Both the position numbers and the translations under genes were made by a program. The notes beneath the pieces are model-generated. The model had not been told where the DNA came from. It saw only the letters and a program-made list of their open reading frames with translations, and searched no databases. A stretch of 64,000 bases of DNA, from assembly GCA_015698285.1 (NCBI GenBank), contig CP048685.1:2480001-2544000 (forward strand). Direction: 5' to 3'. Source of the DNA: Candidatus Nitronauta litoralis. GTDB lineage: Bacteria; Nitrospinota; Nitrospinia; Nitrospinales; Nitrospinaceae. Of this stretch, positions 6,929 through 64,000 are shown in pieces (position 1 is the stretch's first letter; the number at the start of each line of letters is the position of its first letter).

Positions 6929-7846
6929 ATGGATACTTATAAAATTGACCATGTAGCTAGAATGACGGGTTTAAGCAAACACGTAATCCGGTCCTGGGAA
7001 AGGCGATTTGATTTAATAAAGCCCGTCAGGGGAGGCAACCGGTACCGGATGTATTCCCAAGAGGATGTCGAACTCCTGATTTACTTAAAGGATCAATTGG
7101 AGGAAGGATTCGCCATTGGAGAGCTGGCAAGTCTGGGAAGGGATGAGTTAATCGCCCGAATCCAGAGGACAGACGATAATGAAGGTAAGGAAGCCGGAAA
7201 CTCGCTTGATCGTATACTGGAGTCCTTGCTTTCTTCTATTTCACCTTTAGATCGAAACAAGTTTGTGCGTCTTTTTAATGAATACAGCGCATTACTGCCA
7301 TTTGATGAAGTGTTTTACAAGATTTTCATTCCCCTTCAGCGAAAAATAGGCGACCTTTGGCATGAGGGTAAAATTGGTGTTGGTGAAGAGCATTTTGTGA
7401 GCAATCATATCCGTCAAAAATTTCTTTCAGTTTTAAATCAAATACCATCCTCCAGTCAGGGGCCAAAAGTGGTAATCGCCTGCCTGCCAGACGAGCAACA
7501 TGAGCTGGCCATCTGGATAGCGGCCTACCAGTGTGCGAGGAATGGGTGTCAGGTGTTTTACCTGGGAGCCAGCATGCCTGTTAAAGAACTGGCTGCATTT
7601 TGTACATTGACCCGACCAAACCTGGTTTTACTTTCATGGACAACCTCATTAACTGAGCCCGAAGCCAAATCTCTGGTCGAGGACTATGTGCAAATGGTTT
7701 TGCCAATTTGTCCGATTTGGGCAGGGGGGGCAGGTGCGTATATGATGAGAGAGTATTTTAAAGAAAGTGGAATAGAGGTTTTGGAATCGTTGCACGTTTT
7801 GGAGGATAGGTTGAAACGCTTGTCTCAGTTTTTACCCAACAAATAA
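6929..7846 (+). CDS. MerR-family B12-binding photoreceptor-type regulator (CarH/LitR-like)
   Basis: 305 residues. An N-terminal MerR helix-turn-helix (residues 4-70; IDHVARMTGLSKHVIRSWER) precedes a four-helix B12-binding cap and a Rossmann cobalamin domain. The light-sensor signature W-x9-EH is intact (W144, E154, H155), and the cobalt-ligand histidine is H191 in DEQHELA. In CarH, adenosylcobalamin keeps the tetrameric repressor on DNA in the dark and light breaks it. The gene is divergent from the FGE operon and 18 bp upstream of a YbgA-type gene, a common LitR/CarH regulon member. Light control here is inferred. Confidence 0.85.
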   Translation: MDTYKIDHVARMTGLSKHVIRSWERRFDLIKPVRGGNRYRMYSQEDVELLIYLKDQLEEGFAIGELASLGRDELIARIQRTDDNEGKEAGNSLDRILESLLSSISPLDRNKFVRLFNEYSALLPFDEVFYKIFIPLQRKIGDLWHEGKIGVGEEHFVSNHIRQKFLSVLNQIPSSSQGPKVVIACLPDEQHELAIWIAAYQCARNGCQVFYLGASMPVKELAAFCTLTRPNLVLLSWTTSLTEPEAKSLVEDYVQMVLPICPIWAGGAGAYMMREYFKESGIEVLESLHVLEDRLKRLSQFLPNK

Positions 7847-7864
7847 ACCGGGAAGCTCACGGAT

Positions 7865-8821
7865 ATGAAAGAAAAAATAAAAATTGGGGTCAGCAGTTGT
7901 TTGATTGGAGAGAAAGTCCGTTGGAATGGAGACCATAAGCAGGACCGTTATGTACGTGAGGTTTTGGAACAGTACTTCCAATACCTTCCTGTTTGTCCAG
8001 AAATGGAAGTCGGGATGGGGGTTCCCAGAGAAACCGTTGCTCTTTATGGTGATCTTAAAAAGCCAAAAATGCTGGGTCGAAAAAGCCGGACCGACTGGAC
8101 GGGTAAGATGAATCGATTTGTAAAAGGCAGGATCAAACAACTCAATCACGATGATCTGTGCGGCTTTATTTTTAAAAGTAAATCTCCTTCATGTGGTCTC
8201 GGTCGGATCCCGGTGTATTCTGAAACGGAGCAAGGTAAAGCGAGGCATGGAGCGGGGATGTTCGCCAAAGCATTCACAGAGACCTTTCCACTGACCCCGG
8301 TCGAGGATGAAGGGAGATTGAACGATCCAAGGATCCGGGAAAATTTTATTGTCCGGGTGTTCAGTTTTTCAAGGTTGAAAAATGAATTGCTCAGCAGCCG
8401 GGCCAGGCCGGGCACCCTGGTAAAATTTCATACGAAAAATAAATTCCTGCTTCTTTCCCACAGCCGGAAACATTACACAGCTCTGGGGAAAATTGTGGCG
8501 GAGGTAAAAAAGGATCCCTGGAATAAAGTGATTGCATCCTATGCGTTTATTTTTATGGAGGCGTTGGCGCTTAAATCAACCACCAAAAAACATACAGATG
8601 TTCTCATGCATATGATGGGGTTTTTTAAAAAGATGCTTTCAAAAGACGAAAAGGCGGACATACTGGAAGCAGTCGAAGATTACCGGAAGGAACTGCTCCC
8701 CTTGATTGTCCCGGTCACTTTAATCCGCAACTATGTAAAAAAACATCAGGTGGACTATTTGCAGGATCAGGTTTATCTGAACCCGCATCCAAAAGAACTC
8801 ATGCTGAGAAACCACGTTTGA
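7865..8821 (+). CDS. DUF523 and DUF1722 (YbgA-like) fusion protein
   Basis: 318 residues. The N-terminal DUF523 part has IGVSSCLIGEKVRWNGDHK and a later SPSCGLGRIPVY, whose cysteines could bind a metal. The C-terminal DUF1722 (YbgA) part covers about residues 190-310 (LSHSRKHYTALGKIVAEV, KKMLSKDEKADILEAVEDYR). The biochemical role of the family is unsettled, but it is often next to photolyases and B12-binding MerR regulators. It follows the regulator by 18 bp and is likely co-transcribed. No photolyase gene lies nearby. Confidence 0.85.
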   Translation: MKEKIKIGVSSCLIGEKVRWNGDHKQDRYVREVLEQYFQYLPVCPEMEVGMGVPRETVALYGDLKKPKMLGRKSRTDWTGKMNRFVKGRIKQLNHDDLCGFIFKSKSPSCGLGRIPVYSETEQGKARHGAGMFAKAFTETFPLTPVEDEGRLNDPRIRENFIVRVFSFSRLKNELLSSRARPGTLVKFHTKNKFLLLSHSRKHYTALGKIVAEVKKDPWNKVIASYAFIFMEALALKSTTKKHTDVLMHMMGFFKKMLSKDEKADILEAVEDYRKELLPLIVPVTLIRNYVKKHQVDYLQDQVYLNPHPKELMLRNHV

Positions 8822-8869
8822 TTTACTTTCAGTCCGAGCCGGATTTATCCTGCATCTAGCATAAAAAGA

Positions 8870-9814
8870 TCAGTTCAAATTCAAAAGTTTCAGATTTGGC
8901 AGCTTGGCCTGTTTTATCAGCTCCTGTGACTGTTCAAAAGTCACTGAATTGAGTGTCAGGTCGAGATGTTCCAGGTTTTTGAGGTTGGGCGATTGCAACA
9001 ATGCCTTGATTCCTTCCGGACCGATTTTATTTTTATAGAGGTCCATCCGTTTTACGTTGCCCAGATGGGGGGAAGCCGCCAATGCTTTTGCGCCGGCATC
9101 GGTCAAACCCGCCTGACTCAGGTCGAGAAATGTAACTTTTGAAAGTTTTTTTGATTTTGCCAGTGCTGCAGCCCCTGCATCACCTACCTGGTTTTTCATC
9201 AGGTTCAGTTCCGTCAGGTTGTTGAAGTTTTGAGAAGTAAGAAGCATGTCCACCCCATCACCGGTAATCCCGTTGTCCCACAACGAAAGTTTTTCGACAT
9301 GGCGGAAGTTTTTAGAATCACACAATAGCTTGAGGCCTGCATCCCCGATTTTATTCGTTTTGAGAGCAAGACTACGGACCTGATTTAATTCAGGTGAGGA
9401 TGCCAGCACTTCCGCGCCTTTTAGGCCGATTTGCGAGTTGTTCAGGTTGAGGCCGTGGCCATCCTCGCTCGTGCGTGATTTCACGTGTGCCGGGATATCT
9501 TTTGGGGGACCGCTCCGACGGTAGTAATGGGAATGTCCGCCCTTACCCGGTTTGCCACCTGGGTGACCGCCTTTTGCATGCGGGCTGTGTGGGTTCCCAC
9601 CATGTGGGTTATGTGGATTGGCAGCATGTGGATTATCTCCACCACCGTGTGGATTGTCTCCAACGCCATGCGGACTTGCCGCATGGGGGTTTTCAGCTCC
9701 CGCATGCGGATTCCCACCATGTGGGTTCGCACTGTATTCGTCGTTTGCAAAAACCGGTTGCACGCTAAACAGCAGGGCGATCACGCCAATTCCCAAAGTC
9801 AATTTACCATTCAT
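8870..9814 (-). CDS. Exported leucine-rich-repeat protein with His/Asn/Gly-rich N-terminus
   Basis: 314 residues. A signal peptide (LTLGIGVIALLFSVQPVFA) is followed by about 70 residues of tandem N-P-H-x(0-6) units (NPHGG, NPHAG, NPHAA, NPHSPHAKGGHPGGK), a likely low-affinity metal-binding tract. The rest is a ribonuclease-inhibitor-type LRR array of about seven repeats (NKIGDAGLKLL, NGITGDGVDMLL, NQVGDAGAAALA, AGLTDAGAKALA, NKIGPEGIKALL). It lies 47 bp downstream of a membrane FGE-fold gene, with GGAG before its ATG. It is probably a periplasmic or surface protein-binding module; the ligand is unknown. Confidence 0.8.
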   Translation of the reverse strand: MNGKLTLGIGVIALLFSVQPVFANDEYSANPHGGNPHAGAENPHAASPHGVGDNPHGGGDNPHAANPHNPHGGNPHSPHAKGGHPGGKPGKGGHSHYYRRSGPPKDIPAHVKSRTSEDGHGLNLNNSQIGLKGAEVLASSPELNQVRSLALKTNKIGDAGLKLLCDSKNFRHVEKLSLWDNGITGDGVDMLLTSQNFNNLTELNLMKNQVGDAGAAALAKSKKLSKVTFLDLSQAGLTDAGAKALAASPHLGNVKRMDLYKNKIGPEGIKALLQSPNLKNLEHLDLTLNSVTFEQSQELIKQAKLPNLKLLNLN

Positions 9815-9861
9815 TTCGTCACTCCAAATGTTTCAATGTGTTCGTTACGAAGCCAGTAGTT

Positions 9862-53602: not shown

Positions 53603-55702
53603 ATGGCCATTTTCATCCTCATTCCTTTGCTTCCGCTCCTCGCTTCCATACTTCTTTTTACTGGTGGGCGACGCTGGGGTGAGAACGGTCACCGGATCGG
53701 GATTCCTGCAATCGGCCTTTCCTTTGCGCTATCCGTGGCCGCTTTTGTTGAGGTGTTGGGAAATGGTCCATTTTCTGTTTCTCTTTATCGTCTCTTTCAA
53801 TCGGGCTCATTAACCATAGACATTTCGTTGTACGTCGACCAACTGACGGTTCTGCTTTTGCTCCTTGTCACAGGCGTCAGTGGAGTGGTGCATGTTTACT
53901 CTTCTCGTTACATGATAGGAGAGCCTCGCTACAATCGATTTTTCGCCGTCATAGCCCTGTTTACTTTTTCAATGATTTTGCTGGTCATGAGCGGTAACCT
54001 CCTGATGTTGTTGATCAGTTGGGAAGTCATGGGGATCTGTTCCTATTTGTTAATCTCTCATGCAGCCGAGCGGCCATCAGCAGGGAAGGCGGCCACCAAA
54101 GCTTTTCTGGTCAACGCTGTTGCAGATATCGGACTGAGCTTCGGCATCATACTTACCTTTTTTACCTTCGGCACACTCGATATCCAGACTATTCTGGCTC
54201 AGGCAGAGGGTATGCAGGACCATACCATCAATATCCTGGGATGGATGGGAATGGAGCTCTTTATCCATCCCGTCACCGTCATTCCCTTTTTCCTCTTTAT
54301 GGGGGCTATGGGAAAATCAGCACAAATGCCATTTCATGTATGGTTGCCCTTCGCGATGGAAGCCCCGACTCCGGTTTCGGCACTCATTCATGCAGCCACT
54401 ATGGTGAATGCAGGTCCCTTTTTGCTGGTGCGACTGAGTCCGTTGTTTGTCCTTTCTCCCTGCGCCATGACGTTTATTTTTATTGTCGGAGCTGCAACCG
54501 CAGTATTTGCCGGGATAGTTTCGCTGACTCAGTCGGACATCAAAAAGATTTTGGCCTATTCGACAATCAGTCAAATTGGATTCATGGTCATGGCATGTGG
54601 TTTAGGCGCGTTTGCAGTGGCAATTTTCCATCTTCTTGCACATGGATGTTACAAAGCCTTCTTTTTTCTATCCACCGGCAATTCGTTGAGGTCAGTGGAG
54701 CAGGATCTTGAACACGCTGACCATGAACATCACAATTCCGATGGCATGGGGGTTTTATATGGCGGGGCCTTGTTGCTGGCGCTGCTCCCTCCATTTGTGT
54801 TGTTCTCTGGGTCCTATGAAAATTTGTGGAAAGTCACAGGATTTGCTTCTGCTTCTCTCGGATTCAAAGTCATTGGCCTGATCACGGTATTTGTGGCGTC
54901 CCAGTATTTATTTAAGGGAGTGACATCGATTTTTGCTCACGGTCCAAAAACGTATTGGCCGGCTTCCGGTGAATATGGCCAGGAGGCCCAATTTGCCAGG
55001 CCGAAGCTTTTTAATAGCTCCATATTAACTGGTCTGGTTCTGGCATTGGTTCTGGTGGGTGGGTTAATGACTCTGTTTTGGAATTGGTTCGCAAACTTTC
55101 TTGCTCCGGTTTTTATTTTTCAAAAAGTCTTGTTGGGTGCCGGTGAAGTTGAACAGGGAGTTTCAGTATGGCTTGTGGTTTCCCTTGGTGTCGCTGCAGT
55201 TGGGTGGGCCTATGCTTACCTGAATCAGAACCGTTCTCAACATCAGCTTTCCAGATCCATTTGGAAAAGCAATCGTTTTTATGTTCTTTTTTGGAATAAG
55301 GGTTATTTTGATGAAATCTATGATGTATATCTGATAAAACCAACCATTCGATTTGCACACTGGATGTGGCAGAGGATTGACATAAAGGTAATAGATCGGT
55401 TCATTCATTCTATAGCTAACTATTCAGTGAATTTTGCCAGATGGCTGTGGCGAATAATGGATGTCAGCATTATTGACCGGTTCATTCATTTTATTGCGTC
55501 TTATTCTGTAAAGTTTGCCGGGCGGTTGTGGCGGATTGTGGATATTCGCTGGTTGGAGAAAAATGTGGGTGAAATGGCGGAGCAGGTAAATGATGCGGGA
55601 CAAATTCTGCAAGAGATGGAATCCCGCACCATTCAACATCAACTACTAGTAATGATTTTCTGGTTGGTGGCAATGACCGGCCTCCTGTATTTCCTGGTTT
55701 AG
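53603..55702 (+). CDS. NuoL/MrpA-N-terminal-like subunit with triplicated C-terminal repeat
   Basis: 699 residues. The first 500 are a NuoL-type antiporter-like channel: ISWEVMGICSYLLISHAAER, KSAQMPFHVWLPFAMEAPTP and ALTQSDIKKILAYSTISQIG-like core. The C-terminus (about 590-680) holds three related amphipathic blocks around HWMWQRIDIKVIDRFIHSIA, ARWLWRIMDVSIIDRFIHFI and AGRLWRIVDIRWLEKN, then a final helix. The repeat is not a standard NuoL or MrpA feature that I know. A candidate DabB-type partner for DabA. Confidence 0.85.
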   Translation: MAIFILIPLLPLLASILLFTGGRRWGENGHRIGIPAIGLSFALSVAAFVEVLGNGPFSVSLYRLFQSGSLTIDISLYVDQLTVLLLLLVTGVSGVVHVYSSRYMIGEPRYNRFFAVIALFTFSMILLVMSGNLLMLLISWEVMGICSYLLISHAAERPSAGKAATKAFLVNAVADIGLSFGIILTFFTFGTLDIQTILAQAEGMQDHTINILGWMGMELFIHPVTVIPFFLFMGAMGKSAQMPFHVWLPFAMEAPTPVSALIHAATMVNAGPFLLVRLSPLFVLSPCAMTFIFIVGAATAVFAGIVSLTQSDIKKILAYSTISQIGFMVMACGLGAFAVAIFHLLAHGCYKAFFFLSTGNSLRSVEQDLEHADHEHHNSDGMGVLYGGALLLALLPPFVLFSGSYENLWKVTGFASASLGFKVIGLITVFVASQYLFKGVTSIFAHGPKTYWPASGEYGQEAQFARPKLFNSSILTGLVLALVLVGGLMTLFWNWFANFLAPVFIFQKVLLGAGEVEQGVSVWLVVSLGVAAVGWAYAYLNQNRSQHQLSRSIWKSNRFYVLFWNKGYFDEIYDVYLIKPTIRFAHWMWQRIDIKVIDRFIHSIANYSVNFARWLWRIMDVSIIDRFIHFIASYSVKFAGRLWRIVDIRWLEKNVGEMAEQVNDAGQILQEMESRTIQHQLLVMIFWLVAMTGLLYFLV

Positions 55703-57729: not shown

Positions 57730-57759
57730 CGATATTTAGTTTAATTAAGGTTGGTTTTT

Positions 57760-58554
57760 ATGTGGCAATGGCTTCGCAATACTCAGCGAAAAAAAATACT
57801 GTCTGCTTCTTTTCCAGAAGAGTGGGAGAGGTGTATTCAAAGTAACATCCAAAACTACCATCACCTCAATGCTGAAGAAAAACAGCGCCTACGGAACCTT
57901 GTTCAGGTCTTTATTGCTGAAAAGGATTGGGTGGGATGCAATGGCCTGGAAATGACCGATGAGATTCGCGTGATTATCGCGGCCCATGCCTGCTTGTTGA
58001 TCCTGGCGTTGCCAAATGACTATTACCGAAAAGTGGAATCTATATATGTTTATCCAACAACCGTTCTTTCTCCCGAAAATTCCATAGGATTTTTCGAAGT
58101 TCGTACGACACCTGTATCCGGTCCGATGCCAATTCTGGGGGAAGCCCATCGACGCGGTCCGGTGATTCTCGTCTGGGATGCAGTGAAAAGGGAAACCCGC
58201 CATCCGGAACACGGCCATAATGTTGTTTATCACGAATTCGCTCATAAACTGGATATGCTCGATGACAGTGCTGACGGTACTCCACCCCTGGCAACTCCTG
58301 AGGAATATCAGCGATGGGTTGAAGTCTGTTCCAAAGAATATCTGAAGTTATGTGACCAGGTGGAACAGGGCAGGCCTACTTTCCTGGACAGTTATGCGGC
58401 AACCAATGAAGCGGAGTTTTTCGCGGTGGCGACCGAATATTTTTTCAGTAAGCCTGAAACCATGAAAGACCATCATCCAATACTTTATCAGGTGTTACAG
58501 GGTTTTTATCGGCAGGATCCAGCAAATAGAGCCGTTGCCCACCGACTTTTTTAG
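57760..58554 (+). CDS. mtfA: MtfA-like zinc metallopeptidase (M90 family)
   Basis: 264 residues from the ATG behind TTAAGG. The zinc-binding HEFAH motif is at 158-162 (VVYHEFAHKLDMLDD). Other family blocks: VFIAEKDWVGCNGLEMTDEIR near the start, GPVILVWDAVKRETRHPEHGHN before the motif, and SYAATNEAEFFAVATEYFFS with the third-ligand Glu. In E. coli MtfA titrates the Mlc repressor and has peptidase activity. No glucose PTS gene lies nearby. A terminator follows. Confidence 0.9.
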   Translation: MWQWLRNTQRKKILSASFPEEWERCIQSNIQNYHHLNAEEKQRLRNLVQVFIAEKDWVGCNGLEMTDEIRVIIAAHACLLILALPNDYYRKVESIYVYPTTVLSPENSIGFFEVRTTPVSGPMPILGEAHRRGPVILVWDAVKRETRHPEHGHNVVYHEFAHKLDMLDDSADGTPPLATPEEYQRWVEVCSKEYLKLCDQVEQGRPTFLDSYAATNEAEFFAVATEYFFSKPETMKDHHPILYQVLQGFYRQDPANRAVAHRLF

Positions 58555-58747: not shown

Positions 58748-60025
58748 ATGGGAAGAGTAAAAATTAAACAGTTGCCACCTCCCACCCGGCAAGTATTTAG
58801 AAGCCCTTCCCTGGAGCCAATGATGAAAATCGCAGAAGACAAATCCGAAATACAATACCTTCAAACAGAGGCATCAGCCGACCAAAATATTCGCGCCTTG
58901 GAGGTTCCCCAGATCCTTTCCGAAGAACTCACAGAATGGGATTATGAAACCTACCGTCGCATCACAACTGTTGAGCTGAATGAGATTCAGGAAGAGCGGA
59001 TACGGATACCAAAAAACACCTTTCCAAGGCAAGACACAGTTGTAGCCATGCACTGGCATCCGGAATTTATTCCCATGGAGATGATTCGGGAAAGAGTGTG
59101 TACGATGTTTCCAAATAAATCGCAGGAATTGATAATCCCCACCAACCATAACATTCTGAATAGTTACGATGGGAAATACACCGGTGTAGAGGTTGATTGT
59201 TTTGCGCGGCCATTCAATCGAAAAGTTCAAATACTGCTTCATTTCGAGAATTCCAGGCTTGAAAAAGCCGATGTTCTCAAATCGATGCTCAAGCACACTC
59301 TTAAATATCGCTCCAGCCAGTTGTTTGAATTGATTCATTCCATTGTGGATCCCAATCTTGATCACCGGCTGCAGGCAGCTGGAAAAATGTATGGGGCCGA
59401 TGATGACCTGTTGCGGTTTGTAAAAGTCTATACAAGGAAGCTGGAGCGGTTACTGGTTGAGCATGAATCGGAAACCCCTCAAGATCACATCAAGAATAAA
59501 TTACTGGCAAATTACTTTGACCAGTTACGGGAAATTTATGATGACCGCTTGATTAAGAGGGCGCAGTTCCTGATCCAGAAGGTAAAGAAAATTGTCAAAA
59601 AACATTTTAGTCCGGATTATTTTTACGCAATAGAAGAGTTTATTGAGGAGACCAGAATGTTAGGGGGAGGAATAGTGATTCCCCATCCGGAGCAATTCTG
59701 GCCTATTCTTCTTGCAGAATACGATGTTGATGGGATTGAAGCGTGGAATCCTCAATCTCAGGAATACACTGAATTTTTAATCAATGTAGTGAATTTGAAA
59801 AACAAAACGCAATTGTCGGGCCAGCGTCCTATTTTGATTTTTATGGGTGATGATTGTCATCTAAGCGAAAAAATCAAGGAGCCTCAAAACCAGAATAAGG
59901 AAAAGGTAAAACGGGAAGTAGGTTTCCAACCGGCTTGGGACGATCTTGCCATTCGCAAAAGTCTGATTGTTGCAAACATGGACCGGCAAAAACTGATAGA
60001 AGAATATCTGGCGCGGCTCGGATAA
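58748..60025 (+). CDS. PHP-domain protein, probable phosphoesterase, of the GAK-like cluster
   Basis: 425 residues. Metal-binding PHP motifs are spread along the sequence: HWHPE at 102-106, TNHN, GVEVDCF, HPEQFW with H313, WNPQS and GDDCH with H371. The middle (about 190-300) is a long helical insert. This layout fits the PHP hydrolases (polymerase/histidinol phosphatase type), which cut phosphate esters with two or three metals. There is no clear ribosome site at 58748; an ATG at 58820 behind GGAG is a plausible alternative start. First gene of the cluster with kinases and ATP-grasp. Confidence 0.65.
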   Translation: MGRVKIKQLPPPTRQVFRSPSLEPMMKIAEDKSEIQYLQTEASADQNIRALEVPQILSEELTEWDYETYRRITTVELNEIQEERIRIPKNTFPRQDTVVAMHWHPEFIPMEMIRERVCTMFPNKSQELIIPTNHNILNSYDGKYTGVEVDCFARPFNRKVQILLHFENSRLEKADVLKSMLKHTLKYRSSQLFELIHSIVDPNLDHRLQAAGKMYGADDDLLRFVKVYTRKLERLLVEHESETPQDHIKNKLLANYFDQLREIYDDRLIKRAQFLIQKVKKIVKKHFSPDYFYAIEEFIEETRMLGGGIVIPHPEQFWPILLAEYDVDGIEAWNPQSQEYTEFLINVVNLKNKTQLSGQRPILIFMGDDCHLSEKIKEPQNQNKEKVKREVGFQPAWDDLAIRKSLIVANMDRQKLIEEYLARLG

Positions 60026-60147
60026 GCCCGCTTGGGAAAAAGAAAAGTTCCGTAGATTCTTAATTTGTCAAATAGCTCCGGCTGGAGAAAGGGAGAAGTG
60101 TGTCTTTTCCCTTAAGGGTCGGGGTACGACTTCACAAAGAGGGTTTT

Positions 60148-60441
60148 ATGGCTTCAATGGATGACGAATTTCGTCACGAATCTCTTCAAGATACAGAATC
60201 CATTCGTAACTACCTTCAAGCCCTCCTGGATGGTTTTGAAAATGGACGGATTTTGTTTGGTACCCGCAAAAAAAAATTAATCCTTGAGCCCAACGGGTTG
60301 TTAAACCTTGCCGTTAAGGCACGACGAAAAAATAAGGAAGTAAGGATTTCAGTGAAAATTAACTGGAAAGAAGAAAAAGACGGCAAAGATGCAGGAAAAG
60401 ACCTGCTTGAAATCAAGCCCGGTAAAAAGAAGAACCGGTAA
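60148..60441 (+). CDS. Amphi-Trp domain protein
   Basis: 97 residues from the ATG behind GAGGG. It reads as an amphipathic-Trp (amphi-Trp) domain: RHESLQDTESIRNYLQALLD, then RKKKLILEPNGLLNLAVKAR, RISVKINWKEE. The C-terminus is lysine-rich. Amphi-Trp domain proteins are known mostly from GAK-type cassettes with HprK-like kinases and ATP-grasp enzymes, which is what follows. Molecular role unknown; perhaps the substrate or a scaffold of the cassette. Confidence 0.75.
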   Translation: MASMDDEFRHESLQDTESIRNYLQALLDGFENGRILFGTRKKKLILEPNGLLNLAVKARRKNKEVRISVKINWKEEKDGKDAGKDLLEIKPGKKKNR

Positions 60442-60456
60442 AAATTGAGATAACCT

Positions 60457-62127
60457 ATGCAAAAAACTGAAATTGAAAAAAGCGGCATTTTATCCAATCA
60501 AGGAATTGACCGTAATTTTAAAACATTGATCTTGGAAGTTCAAAAACAGGTCCAAAATACACGCGAGGTTCTTGATCAGCCTGATGGCAAACGGAAAAAT
60601 AAGATTCTTTCCCGCGATGACTATATCGATAATTTAAAAAGCCTGATTGAAAACAAGTGTTTCTACAGCAATCTCAAAGGTAATCTTGAAAAACGGGATG
60701 TTGATCTGATCCGGGCTATTAATATTATTACTTCAAACCTGGAGCATATTGCCGACTATTCGGTCAATATTATTTCACAACTGCATTATTTGGACGATCC
60801 ACTTTTTTTGCATAATTTCGAATACAAGCCTTTGTTCGACGAAGTGACCGGGGCATTGAAGCTTGTTGAAAAATCTCTTCGAAAGCGCGACATAAACCAG
60901 GCCTTTAAAATCTGCAGGTCCGAGCAAACGATCGATAGTCTTTTTGCAATGCAATTTAAAAAAATAATGGATGATCTCCGCAAGGGGCGAAACATTGAAA
61001 ACCTGGTCACAACCCTTTTTATACTGCGTTACCTGGAACGGATGGGAGACCAGATGTTGAATATTGGCGAAGCCATTATCTTCGCAGGTGTCGGTGAAAA
61101 ACTCAAAATCAGCCACATAGAAGCCCTTGAGGATTCCATGGAAGGTATCGATATCCACGGGCCCATCACCAATCTCAGTATTGAATCATTTCTTGAGACC
61201 AAATCTGGTTGCAGAATAAACAGAATTCAGGGGCCGGAAACTGCGGACCAGGAAACAGGGGTTATATTCAAGGAAGGCCAGATCGACAAACTCGAACAGG
61301 AAAACAAAAATATCAGGCTGTGGGAAAAAATCAAACCCGGGTTGCCTCCCCGGGTGTTTGGGTTTAACAAAAATGGGAAATCAGCTTCCATACTTCTTGA
61401 ATTTCTAAACGGGACAACACTTCAAAAAGCACTTTTGGAATCCAATCGTGGATTACTGGACAAAGCCATGAACCAGTTGACAGAGGATCTGGAAGACCTC
61501 TGGTTAAAATCTAAAAACCCCCAACCAGTGCAGGCAAATTTCATAAATCAAACAAGTCAACGAATAGAAGATATTTTCCATACGCACCCGGATTTTAAGC
61601 TGCTTGAAAAACAAATTGGAAGCCACCGCACATTGTCTCTTCCCGCTCTTCTTGAACAAACCCAAAAGATTGAGGAAGAAATTGGAGGGGCTCCATTTTC
61701 CGTATTGATCCACGGTGATTTTAATATAGACAATGTTTTGTTTAATGAGGCCGATAGCACAATTCATTTTATTGACCTTCATCGGTCCAAACCGCAGGAT
61801 TACGTTCAGGATATCTCAGTATTCATTCTGTCAAACTTCAGGTTGCCTGTATTTGTTAACCGAATTCGTAAAAACATTAACAACATGACGTTAAGGATGT
61901 TTTGCTTTGGCAGGAATTTTGCCAAAAAACAGAAAGATCCAACCTATGAGGCCAGGTTGGCACTAGGTTTGATTCGTTCCTTTACAACTTCAACCCGGTT
62001 TGAATTCAATAAGGAATTTGCCTCCACCATGCTGTTAAGAGCAGTGTACTTGATGGAAAAATTAATGGGTTTTAGAGGAAAACCCTGGGCTCAGTTCCGG
62101 CTTCCTCAAGAGGTTCTTTCATATTGA
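60457..62127 (+). CDS. PhoU-like and APH-type kinase fusion protein
   Basis: 556 residues. The N-terminal 210 are all-helical and PhoU-like (NLEKRDVDLIRAINIITSNL, FILRYLERMGDQMLNIGEAI). From about 240 on is an aminoglycoside-phosphotransferase/choline-kinase-like domain: the catalytic loop HGDFNIDN has H419, D421 and N426, with FIDLHRS as the metal-binding segment. It could phosphorylate a small molecule. No resistance function is implied. The PhoU half suggests phosphate-linked or protein-partner control. Overlaps or nearly abuts the next gene. Confidence 0.75.
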   Translation: MQKTEIEKSGILSNQGIDRNFKTLILEVQKQVQNTREVLDQPDGKRKNKILSRDDYIDNLKSLIENKCFYSNLKGNLEKRDVDLIRAINIITSNLEHIADYSVNIISQLHYLDDPLFLHNFEYKPLFDEVTGALKLVEKSLRKRDINQAFKICRSEQTIDSLFAMQFKKIMDDLRKGRNIENLVTTLFILRYLERMGDQMLNIGEAIIFAGVGEKLKISHIEALEDSMEGIDIHGPITNLSIESFLETKSGCRINRIQGPETADQETGVIFKEGQIDKLEQENKNIRLWEKIKPGLPPRVFGFNKNGKSASILLEFLNGTTLQKALLESNRGLLDKAMNQLTEDLEDLWLKSKNPQPVQANFINQTSQRIEDIFHTHPDFKLLEKQIGSHRTLSLPALLEQTQKIEEEIGGAPFSVLIHGDFNIDNVLFNEADSTIHFIDLHRSKPQDYVQDISVFILSNFRLPVFVNRIRKNINNMTLRMFCFGRNFAKKQKDPTYEARLALGLIRSFTTSTRFEFNKEFASTMLLRAVYLMEKLMGFRGKPWAQFRLPQEVLSY

Positions 62128-62141
62128 AGGGAAACAGTATT

Positions 62142-63044
62142 ATGCAAAAAAAATACTCACCCAAAATCGGGGTTATTGGAATTTCGGGGATGTGGTCTTC
62201 TGACCATCTGGCGGATGTAATCCAGGGAAAAACCGGGTTTCGAATGGTAATCAATATGGAAGAGGTTCTTTTCGATATGGAACAGGGCACCGTCACCTTC
62301 CAGGGGCAAAGCCTTCTCGATCTTGATGCTTTAATTATTAAAAAACTTGGAGCTGAATACACACCTGATTTACTTAGCAGGCTTGAAGTCCTGAGATATG
62401 TTGAAGACTGTGGTGTTCAAATTTTCTCCAGACCCGAAAGCATTAATAAGGTACTGGACCGACTCAGTTGCACCAACCAGTTGTTTCGCTCAGATATACC
62501 AATTCCATCTACAGTGGTAACAGAAAGCATGGAATTGGCCGAACAAACTGCCAGAAGCATGGGCAAATGTATTTTGAAGCCCCTTTACACCTCCAAAGCC
62601 AGGGGTATGGTTGTGCTGGATGAAAATAATAATATTCGTGAAAAGCTGGAAGCCTACCGTACTTCAGGAAACAGAACTTTTTATCTGCAAAAGTGGATTC
62701 AGATACCAGGGAAAGATCTGGGAATCGTTTTTCTGGGGGGAAACTATCTGGCAACTTATGCCCGCGTTGCTAATGCGGACTCCTGGAATACGACTACCCG
62801 ATCTGGAGGTCACTATGAACCTTATACACCCAACCCTGAAATAATAGAATTGGCTAAAAAGGCTCAGGAACCGTTCGAACTGGATTTCACTTGTGTTGAT
62901 CTGGTTGAAGCACCTGAAGGGCCCCGTATCTTCGAAGTTTCTGCCTTTGGAGGATTCAAGGGATTAAAAGATGCCCATGGAATTGATGCAGCAGAACTTT
63001 ATGTTGACCATGTCCTGGAGGGTTTGCGTCATGGAAAAAATTGA
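62142..63044 (+). CDS. ATP-grasp enzyme of the GAK-like cluster
   Basis: 300 residues from the ATG preceded by GAAGGG; a TTG at 62124 in frame overlaps the end of the previous gene. The RimK-like ATP-grasp fold shows in KCILKPLYTSKARGMVVLDE, FYLQKWIQIPGKDLGIVFLG, TTTRSGGHYEPYTP and the C-terminal metal-binding FEVSAFGGFKGLKDAHGI. ATP-grasp enzymes make acyl-phosphate-activated carboxylate-amine or thiol bonds. The gene overlaps the HprK-like gene by 14 bp. Confidence 0.8.
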   Translation: MQKKYSPKIGVIGISGMWSSDHLADVIQGKTGFRMVINMEEVLFDMEQGTVTFQGQSLLDLDALIIKKLGAEYTPDLLSRLEVLRYVEDCGVQIFSRPESINKVLDRLSCTNQLFRSDIPIPSTVVTESMELAEQTARSMGKCILKPLYTSKARGMVVLDENNNIREKLEAYRTSGNRTFYLQKWIQIPGKDLGIVFLGGNYLATYARVANADSWNTTTRSGGHYEPYTPNPEIIELAKKAQEPFELDFTCVDLVEAPEGPRIFEVSAFGGFKGLKDAHGIDAAELYVDHVLEGLRHGKN

Positions 63045-64000
63045 GTACACCGCGATGGAAATTGCTGAAATTTACAAGAATATGCATAACTTTCCCCATG
63101 AATTGAACCTTAAATTCGGAGATTGCCGTATTCGGGTAAAAACCAACTCCGAGCCACTTTGCGACCACCTCATTCGCTATTTTCAGGATTTCCAGGCTGA
63201 TGAGCTTTCAACTCCTGATATTGAAATTACTGCAGTAGAGACGGAAATTCAGGGTTTCAATGTTGATTTTGAGACCCGTCAACCCGAACCAGGGAAAAGA
63301 AAAATAAAAGAAGAATATTTTGATTTTATTGATGGACGGATTGTTCGCAAGCGACTGACGGGAATGTGCTTCATTTTTGGGAAAGAGTTGAATCTGGCGG
63401 TAGGTCCTTGCTTTAAAAACGACAATCAGGTGATAAATTTTATAAACAACCGATTTATTGAATGGATGCTCAAAAAGGAAATGCTTCTGGCTCATTGCGC
63501 CGGAGTTTCCAAAAATGGCAAAGGTATCGCAATGGCTGGGTTTTCCGGAATGGGGAAATCCACCCTGGCCCTTCATCTAATGAGCCGAGGATTTAATTTT
63601 ATAAGCAACGACCGGCTCCTGTTGGAGCAAAAGGATGGACGGATTAACATGTGGGGGGTTCCCAAATTACCACGCATAAACCCAGGGACAGCCCTGAACA
63701 ACCCAGACCTGCAAACCATTTTGTCACCCTCTGAAAAAAGCAAAGTGGAAAAAATGGATCCCAATAAACTTTGGCACCTGGAACAGAAATACGATGTTTA
63801 TATCGATCAGTGCTATGGATCCAATCGTTTTGAATTACACGCGCCCATAAACCTGATTGTAATCCTGAACTGGGATCATGAATATAAGGATCCTGTTTTT
63901 AATCGTGTAGATCTTTGGAGTCGACGCGATCTACTACCAGCTTTAATGAAAAGTCCCGGGCTTTTCTTTTTGCCAGATTCTGGAAAAAAATCTGATTTTT
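63031..64000 (+). CDS. HprK-related kinase (type B of GAK cassettes), 3' end outside window
   Basis: Starts at the ATG behind GGAGGG, inside the end of the ATP-grasp gene, and runs off the window end (323 codons seen, no stop). The HprK-like P-loop GFSGMGKS is at 170-177, preceded by HCAGVSKNGKGIAMA and followed by LHLMSRGFNFISNDRLLL with the conserved Asp. Unlike HPr kinase of Firmicutes there is no PTS gene nearby. By position and motif it fits the HprK-related kinase B group of GAK-type cassettes, with unknown target. Confidence 0.75.
   Translation, partial: MEKIEYTAMEIAEIYKNMHNFPHELNLKFGDCRIRVKTNSEPLCDHLIRYFQDFQADELSTPDIEITAVETEIQGFNVDFETRQPEPGKRKIKEEYFDFIDGRIVRKRLTGMCFIFGKELNLAVGPCFKNDNQVINFINNRFIEWMLKKEMLLAHCAGVSKNGKGIAMAGFSGMGKSTLALHLMSRGFNFISNDRLLLEQKDGRINMWGVPKLPRINPGTALNNPDLQTILSPSEKSKVEKMDPNKLWHLEQKYDVYIDQCYGSNRFELHAPINLIVILNWDHEYKDPVFNRVDLWSRRDLLPALMKSPGLFFLPDSGKKSDF

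Follow-up and report, generated by a model that had tools for sequence, protein, structure and literature searches.

The GAK system of bacteria is named but uncharacterised; it is represented in NCBIfam by the protein families amphi-Trp (TIGR04354), HprK_rel_B (TIGR04355), grasp_GAK (TIGR04356), CofD_rel_GAK (TIGR04357) and XXXCH (TIGR04358), and a full-text search of 5.39 million open papers for the family names and accessions found no paper on it. This work describes a cassette of this type at the end of a 64,000-nucleotide stretch of the genome of Candidatus Nitronauta litoralis, a Nitrospinota bacterium of nitrite-oxidiser type (contig CP048685.1), hereafter the window, which covers bases 2480001-2544000 of a single-contig genome of 3.92 Mb (label G000). 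The sequence was read beyond the window end on stretch L003 (window position = L003 position + 55999).

The cassette consists of seven plus-strand genes encoding, in this order, a PHP protein, amphi-Trp 1, a PhoU-APH fusion, an ATP-grasp ligase, an HprK-related kinase, amphi-Trp 2 and a phosphohexomutase (PGM) (Table 1). The five closely packed genes noted in an earlier sequence-only reading of the window are confirmed by their open reading frames. From amphi-Trp 1 onward neighbouring genes overlap or are separated by gaps of 8-16 bases, so that the set looks like one operon.

Table 1. Genes of the GAK-type cassette of Candidatus Nitronauta litoralis
Product	Window position	L003 position	Strand	Basis of assignment	Remark
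PHP-fold metal-dependent phosphoesterase-like protein, 425 aa	58748..60025		+	Open reading frame, AlphaFold model, Foldseek, invariant motifs	Alternative start near 58821-58824 also possible
Amphi-Trp protein 1, 97 aa, FxHESLQDxxSI class	60148..60441		+	TIGR04354	Start at 60148 (MASMDD) more likely than at 60100
PhoU-APH fusion (N-terminal PhoU domains, C-terminal APH-type kinase domain)	60457..62127		+	Pfam	
grasp_GAK, ATP-grasp ligase of the GAK system	62124..63044		+	TIGR04356	
HprK-related kinase B (HprK_rel_B)	63031..64113	7032-8114	+	TIGR04355	Cut by the window at 64000
Amphi-Trp protein 2	64122-64442	8123-8443	+	TIGR04354	Beyond window end
Phosphohexomutase (PGM)	64459-65823	8460-9824	+	PgmG-like match	Beyond window end

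Identity of the cassette proteins

In profile hidden Markov model searches the amphi-Trp, ATP-grasp and HprK-related proteins exceed the curated NCBIfam cut-offs of their GAK families (63 and 47 bits against 31 for amphi-Trp 1 and 2; 428.8 against 300 for grasp_GAK; 496 against 200 for HprK_rel_B), which bears out the GAK-type cassette of the sequence-only reading, and they are adjacent and in the usual order. The cassette differs from the system as defined in NCBIfam in that CofD_rel_GAK and XXXCH are missing from the whole genome, a PGM paralogue being present instead, and in that the PhoU-APH and PHP proteins belong to the system yet reach no NCBIfam model's cut-off. CofD_rel_GAK has no match in the genome even at E 0.001, and XXXCH has none in the six GAK-positive Nitrospinota genomes, a positive control (G077) being matched. 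The expectation that CofD-like or XXXCH genes would follow position 64000 was thus mistaken, amphi-Trp 2 and the PGM gene being found there. That this is the GAK cassette, an all-or-none module, in its Nitrospinales form is near certain.

The PhoU half of the fusion protein scores 87.8 bits (Pfam cut-off 23.5) and the APH half is weak but over its cut-off (29.9 bits against 23.2, Pfam). The PGM is PgmG-like (464 bits, under the 600-bit NCBIfam equivalog cut-off). Neither Pfam nor NCBIfam gives a significant match for the PHP protein (best score 15.5 bits against a cut-off of 200). As judged from its profile scores, HprK_rel_B is a homologue of HPr kinase and not HprK itself (34 bits against the HPr kinase/phosphorylase equivalog hpr-ser, cut-off 240). 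Similarity of the APH half to aminoglycoside kinases is weak (33 bits against the aminoglycoside phosphotransferase APH(3') equivalog, cut-off 205), so that it should not be taken for, or annotated as, aminoglycoside resistance.

Both kinase folds of the sequence-only reading are real and all catalytic residues checked in them are intact. Alignment of HprK_rel_B to HPr kinase structures (2qmh/1jb1) places His155, P-loop Lys176/Ser177 and Asp194 on the active-site His, P-loop and Asp of Lactobacillus casei HprK; these four residues are invariant in 81/81 proteins, and the Asp next to the Asp194 site is replaced by Asn in all 81. With the active-site His, P-loop Lys/Ser and Asp all kept, the protein is predicted to be kinase-competent. 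The APH half shares the catalytic residues of APH kinases (K272, E282, H419, G420, D421, N426 and D440, invariant in 65 proteins), and the PhoU half has structural matches to PhoU regulators (1t72, 4q25); what distinguishes the protein is that PhoU and APH are fused in one chain. The nearest relatives of grasp_GAK are MptN (158 bits) and the RimK/CofF ligases (NCBIfam).

The AlphaFold model of the PHP protein (predicted local distance difference test, pLDDT, 88; predicted template modelling score, pTM, 0.83) has its only significant Foldseek matches to Vibrio RNase AM (9etk, E=1e-5) and the Bifidobacterium phosphoesterase BAD_1165 (3e0f/3o0f, E=1e-4), and since these are all PHP enzymes the PHP assignment of the sequence-only reading is right. 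Residues of metal-ligand type (HxH 102/104, H134, E148, H165, H313, D368/D369 and H371) are invariant in an alignment of 38 homologues, within motifs of the HWHPE, PT(x)HN, PHPE and GDDxH types that are invariant together with E148 and H165. By modelled fold and metal-binding motifs the protein is a member of the PHP phosphoesterase superfamily and a predicted hydrolase. It shares the fold and metal-ligand pattern of RNase AM/YciV and BAD_1165, from which it differs in sequence (identity of about 14%) and by a long helical insertion around residues 175-285.

Amphi-Trp proteins were classed by gene position (directly 5' of PhoU-APH versus downstream of HprK), not by motif. Those directly 5' of PhoU-APH carry FxHESLQDxxSI, with Ser at the first site in 40/41 and Ser/Thr at the second in 39/41, whereas Ser occupies the same column in only 2/30 of the downstream proteins. 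The predicted structure, with block means of 90-97 pLDDT over residues 11-70, consists of one helix (16-32) followed by a four-strand meander, and the Ser motif stands just before and at the helix start. In some cassettes (L055, L056, L046, L085) more than one amphi-Trp gene lies downstream, and a few of these genes have long extensions at the N-terminus.

Distribution, core members and exchanged modules

Among 77 Nitrospinota genomes, grasp_GAK over cut-off, full-length PhoU-APH and amphi-Trp all occur in exactly the same six; HprK_rel_B, searched for in nine of the genomes, is present in these six and absent from three negatives. The same-genus genome G010 has the cassette, and no cassette gene is present in one of two relatives from the same genus (94% complete), so that the whole set is gained or lost together. 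PhoU-APH is found in 57 and HprK_rel_B in 55 of 120 Desulfovibrionia-class genomes, all 55 being shared (Fisher 2.5e-32). A cross-phylum scan with the HprK alignment against one genome per species retrieved 80 loci from Thermodesulfobacteriota, Pseudomonadota, Nitrospinota, Nitrospirota, Spirochaetota, Zixiibacteriota, Planctomycetota, Myxococcota, Gemmatimonadota, Actinomycetota and Bacillota. The 49 loci of at least 14 kb ("long loci") contain PhoU-APH in 49 cases, grasp_GAK in 49, HprK in 49, amphi-Trp in 48, CofD_rel in 40, PHP in 30 and XXXCH in 17; the HprK count is complete by construction, as the loci were found through HprK, which does not affect the other counts. The co-occurrence of the families put forward in the sequence-only reading is thus real.

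These counts redefine the core parts of the system. Although no NCBIfam model covers the fusion, PhoU-APH is a core member, being in every long locus and in many phyla, which contradicts the earlier suggestion that the fused kinase was lineage-specific. CofD_rel_GAK is usual, not universal, and XXXCH is optional. Two Desulfovibrionia cassettes (L153:4587-10507 and L154:4293-10409) comprise XXXCH, PHP, amphi-Trp, PhoU-APH, ATP-grasp and CofD_rel and are without HprK, their genomes having no HprK_rel_B match anywhere at the cut-off used; in genome G166 HprK is on a different contig from the remaining cassette genes. Elsewhere HprK_rel_B is fused to amphi-Trp 2 (G004, L034:13690-15123, minus strand) or to CofD_rel_GAK (L047:3874-6213), natural fusions which tie the kinase to both of its proposed partners.

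The hydrolase and CofD modules are replaceable. PHP is found in five of the six GAK-positive Nitrospinota genomes, and PHP-bearing loci form one branch; in its place Pseudomonadota loci have a Nudix protein, a SixA-Nudix fusion, a His-phosphatase and a metallophosphoesterase. The fusion, a SixA-type His-phosphatase joined to a Nudix domain (L110:11056-12018 and relatives), has the domain pair of mycobacterial MutT1 in reversed order. His-phosphatase is present in 0/30 PHP loci and in 17/19 of the other long loci, a mutual exclusion weaker than the counts imply because two changes on the HprK tree (mainly one deep split and one clear swap) suffice to explain the pattern. The Nitrospinaceae genome G063 (locus L084) falls inside the PHP branch of the HprK tree, yet carries a His-phosphatase and a metallophosphoesterase, and has no PHP match in its 81% complete genome.

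CofD_rel_GAK proteins reach 108-151 bits against the YvcK model (TIGR01826) and no more than 22 bits against that of true CofD (TIGR01819), values that disfavour true F420 CofD chemistry. Most loci have CofD_rel_GAK in this slot; in a Firmicutes metagenome-assembled genome it is taken by a genuine YvcK/GlmR (L087:6483-7484; 364 bits, cut-off 196) that overlaps the PhoU-APH start and is the sole CofD/YvcK-family match found in that genome. The slot is vacant in the six Nitrospinota genomes, where no CofD_rel exceeds the cut-off (a weak 86-bit match in G004 only). Each of the six has a second PGM, located within the cassette or next to it. A housekeeping PGM copy was found in 14/14 genomes tested and is a separate gene in every GAK-positive genome, so the cassette PGM is not a coincidental housekeeping neighbour. 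In a tree the PGMs of the cassettes branch as deep paralogues apart from the housekeeping clade, and their catalytic motifs are intact.

A possible phosphorylation switch and its alternatives

The chemistry that recurs is thus the transfer and removal of phosphate, centred on either a phosphohexomutase or a YvcK-like protein. In Bacillus subtilis, the glmR (yvcK) operon comprises yvcI, yvcJ, glmR, yvcL, crh and yvcN (PMC6171935), GlmR makes UDP-GlcNAc (PMC10128056), and glmR and the phosphohexomutase gene pgcA form a synthetic lethal pair, a pgcA gain-of-function mutation suppressing glmR loss (PMC6797236). The exchange of CofD_rel for PGM in Nitrospinota parallels this genetic pair. On these grounds it is tentatively proposed, as a possibility well short of an even chance, that the GAK cassette encodes a phosphorylation switch acting on amphi-Trp which controls sugar-nucleotide (cell-envelope precursor) metabolism, in analogy to HprK/Crh/GlmR of Bacillus. 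The two systems share an HprK-fold kinase, a small protein with a conserved helix-start Ser, a YvcK-like protein or phosphohexomutase and sometimes a Nudix protein; they differ in that amphi-Trp lacks the HPr fold, in the additional APH kinase, ATP-grasp and PHP proteins of GAK, and in that Bacillus hprK lies outside the glmR operon. The likeness would be one of working principle, and no membership is claimed.

The substrates, the direction of control and the roles of the ATP-grasp protein and the PhoU domain might then be as follows. HprK_rel_B would phosphorylate amphi-Trp 1, most likely on the helix-start Ser (S-L-Q-D-x-x-S-I), much as HprK phosphorylates HPr and Crh at Ser46. PhoU-APH, whose catalytic residues are present, may supply or gate a second phosphorylation in response to phosphate or energy status, PhoU being the putative sensor. 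The PHP phosphoesterase would take the phosphate off, and the His-phosphatase, metallophosphoesterase and Nudix proteins that replace it in other lineages would presumably do the same. The ATP-grasp enzyme may add an amino acid, perhaps glutamate in view of its MptN/RimK kinship, to a cassette protein or a metabolite. An output arm occupied by CofD_rel_GAK, YvcK or a dedicated PGM would handle hexose-1-phosphate/UDP-sugar. The more general idea of the sequence-only reading, a make-and-break cycle of a phosphorylated compound or modified peptide, remains plausible with kinases and a phosphohydrolase whose type is swapped between lineages.

Several observations weigh against the proposed switch. 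HprK is not indispensable, since the two Desulfovibrionia cassettes without it keep the Ser motif (SxQDxxSI), which is therefore not strictly tied to this kinase; of the two kinases, the APH half may be the more fundamental. The cassette of locus L083 has Ala at the amphi-Trp 1 Ser position, and the conserved Ser may instead serve as a helix cap (SxxD capping box). No structure in the PDB matches the amphi-Trp model, an alpha-helix followed by four strands, and an HPr fold was rejected for it; any analogy is thus functional only, although Ser46 of HPr also stands at the start of a helix. The cassette PGMs do not form a single clean clade (approximately unbiased test, AU, p = 0.017), and genome G009 has two PGMs and no cassette. 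The CofD family is chemically diverse, and a different nucleotide conjugate may be the substrate of the CofD_rel of GAK. Of all steps in the scheme, that of the ATP-grasp enzyme is explained least. Finally, no biochemical or genetic experiments on any GAK component were found in the open literature (subscription papers and preprints being outside the scope of the search).

Other functions may be considered for the same set of genes. The kinases, ATP-grasp and CofD-like transferase could together make a small molecule that is phosphorylated and glutamylated, comparable to the cofactors F420 or methanopterin, with amphi-Trp proteins as carriers or scaffolds and PHP trimming an intermediate. Such a pathway, which is rather doubtful, would suit the closeness of grasp_GAK to MptN and RimK/CofF ligases, the CofD superfamily member in most cassettes and the fact that APH enzymes usually act on small molecules; CofD_rel_GAK however resembles YvcK and not CofD, genuine YvcK can adjoin the cassette, no CofD_rel protein exceeds the cut-off in the six GAK-positive Nitrospinota, and among the recurrent genes of the neighbourhoods neither an Fo synthase nor one of CofE type was recognised. 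Somewhat less probable still is a role in phosphate or polyphosphate homeostasis, in which the PhoU half would sense supply while kinases and hydrolases add and remove phosphate on a polyanion that serves storage or signalling (polyphosphate, dinucleoside polyphosphate or an inositol-polyphosphate-like compound). A PhoU domain does sit in a component found in every long locus, the replaceable hydrolases (Nudix, MutT1-related SixA plus Nudix, His-phosphatase, metallophosphoesterase) are typical of phosphoanhydride turnover, a cassette metallophosphoesterase has a weak bis-nucleosyl-tetraphosphatase match, and PstB- and PhoU-like genes lie upstream in G063. Nevertheless such a Pst/PhoU neighbourhood is the exception, a polyphosphate kinase was not recognised, and the model has no room for YvcK/CofD and PGM.

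The presence of small proteins in one to four copies beside an ATP-grasp protein and an HprK homologue also recalls lasso peptide clusters with HprK homologues, so that amphi-Trp and XXXCH might be precursors of a ribosomally synthesized and post-translationally modified peptide (RiPP), phosphorylated by the HprK-like kinase and extended by the ATP-grasp enzyme. This is improbable: amphi-Trp is a conserved domain predicted with confidence to be folded and has no leader/core region, no recurrent protease, transporter or RiPP recognition protein was conspicuous among the gene families common to the neighbourhoods, and neither PGM nor YvcK suits such a scheme. That unrelated metabolic genes are adjacent by chance, in favour of which nothing was found, is to all intents refuted by the all-or-none co-occurrence and synteny over many phyla. 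Anti-phage defence was rejected as well, PADLOC giving one weak match only (BrxB, 16.5 bits).

Returning to the phosphorylation switch, a broader and more doubtful claim may be put forward, namely that amphi-Trp proteins are a new class of phosphocarrier, on which an HprK homologue and an APH kinase gated by PhoU would act and so control the flux of hexose-1-phosphate/UDP-sugar. GAK would then be a Ser-phosphorylation switch of a kind not described before and common outside Firmicutes, its phosphatase and sugar-nucleotide modules being interchangeable. The new elements are the PhoU-APH core and the replaceable hydrolase and CofD modules; control of sugar phosphates is indicated by what replaces them (YvcK, phosphohexomutase, phosphatases), and a short list of direct tests follows.

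Flanking genes

Upstream of the PHP gene are genes for an M90 (MtfA) peptidase and complex I subunits. The MtfA-type metallopeptidase (57751-58554) is directly 5' of the cassette, and MtfA is linked to the phosphotransferase system (PTS) in Escherichia coli; it was rejected as a cassette member, as it is not beside the cassette in the same-genus genome. On the other side, 3' of the PGM gene, there is a type II secretion/type IV pilus-like cluster (L003:11168-19900) encoding a T2SSE ATPase and several pilin-like proteins, one of which matches an N-methylation motif. A NuoL-like complex I subunit (53603-55702) has a C-terminus with apparent tandem repeats of about 35 residues (DRFIHSIANYSV... 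/ DRFIHFIASYSV...).

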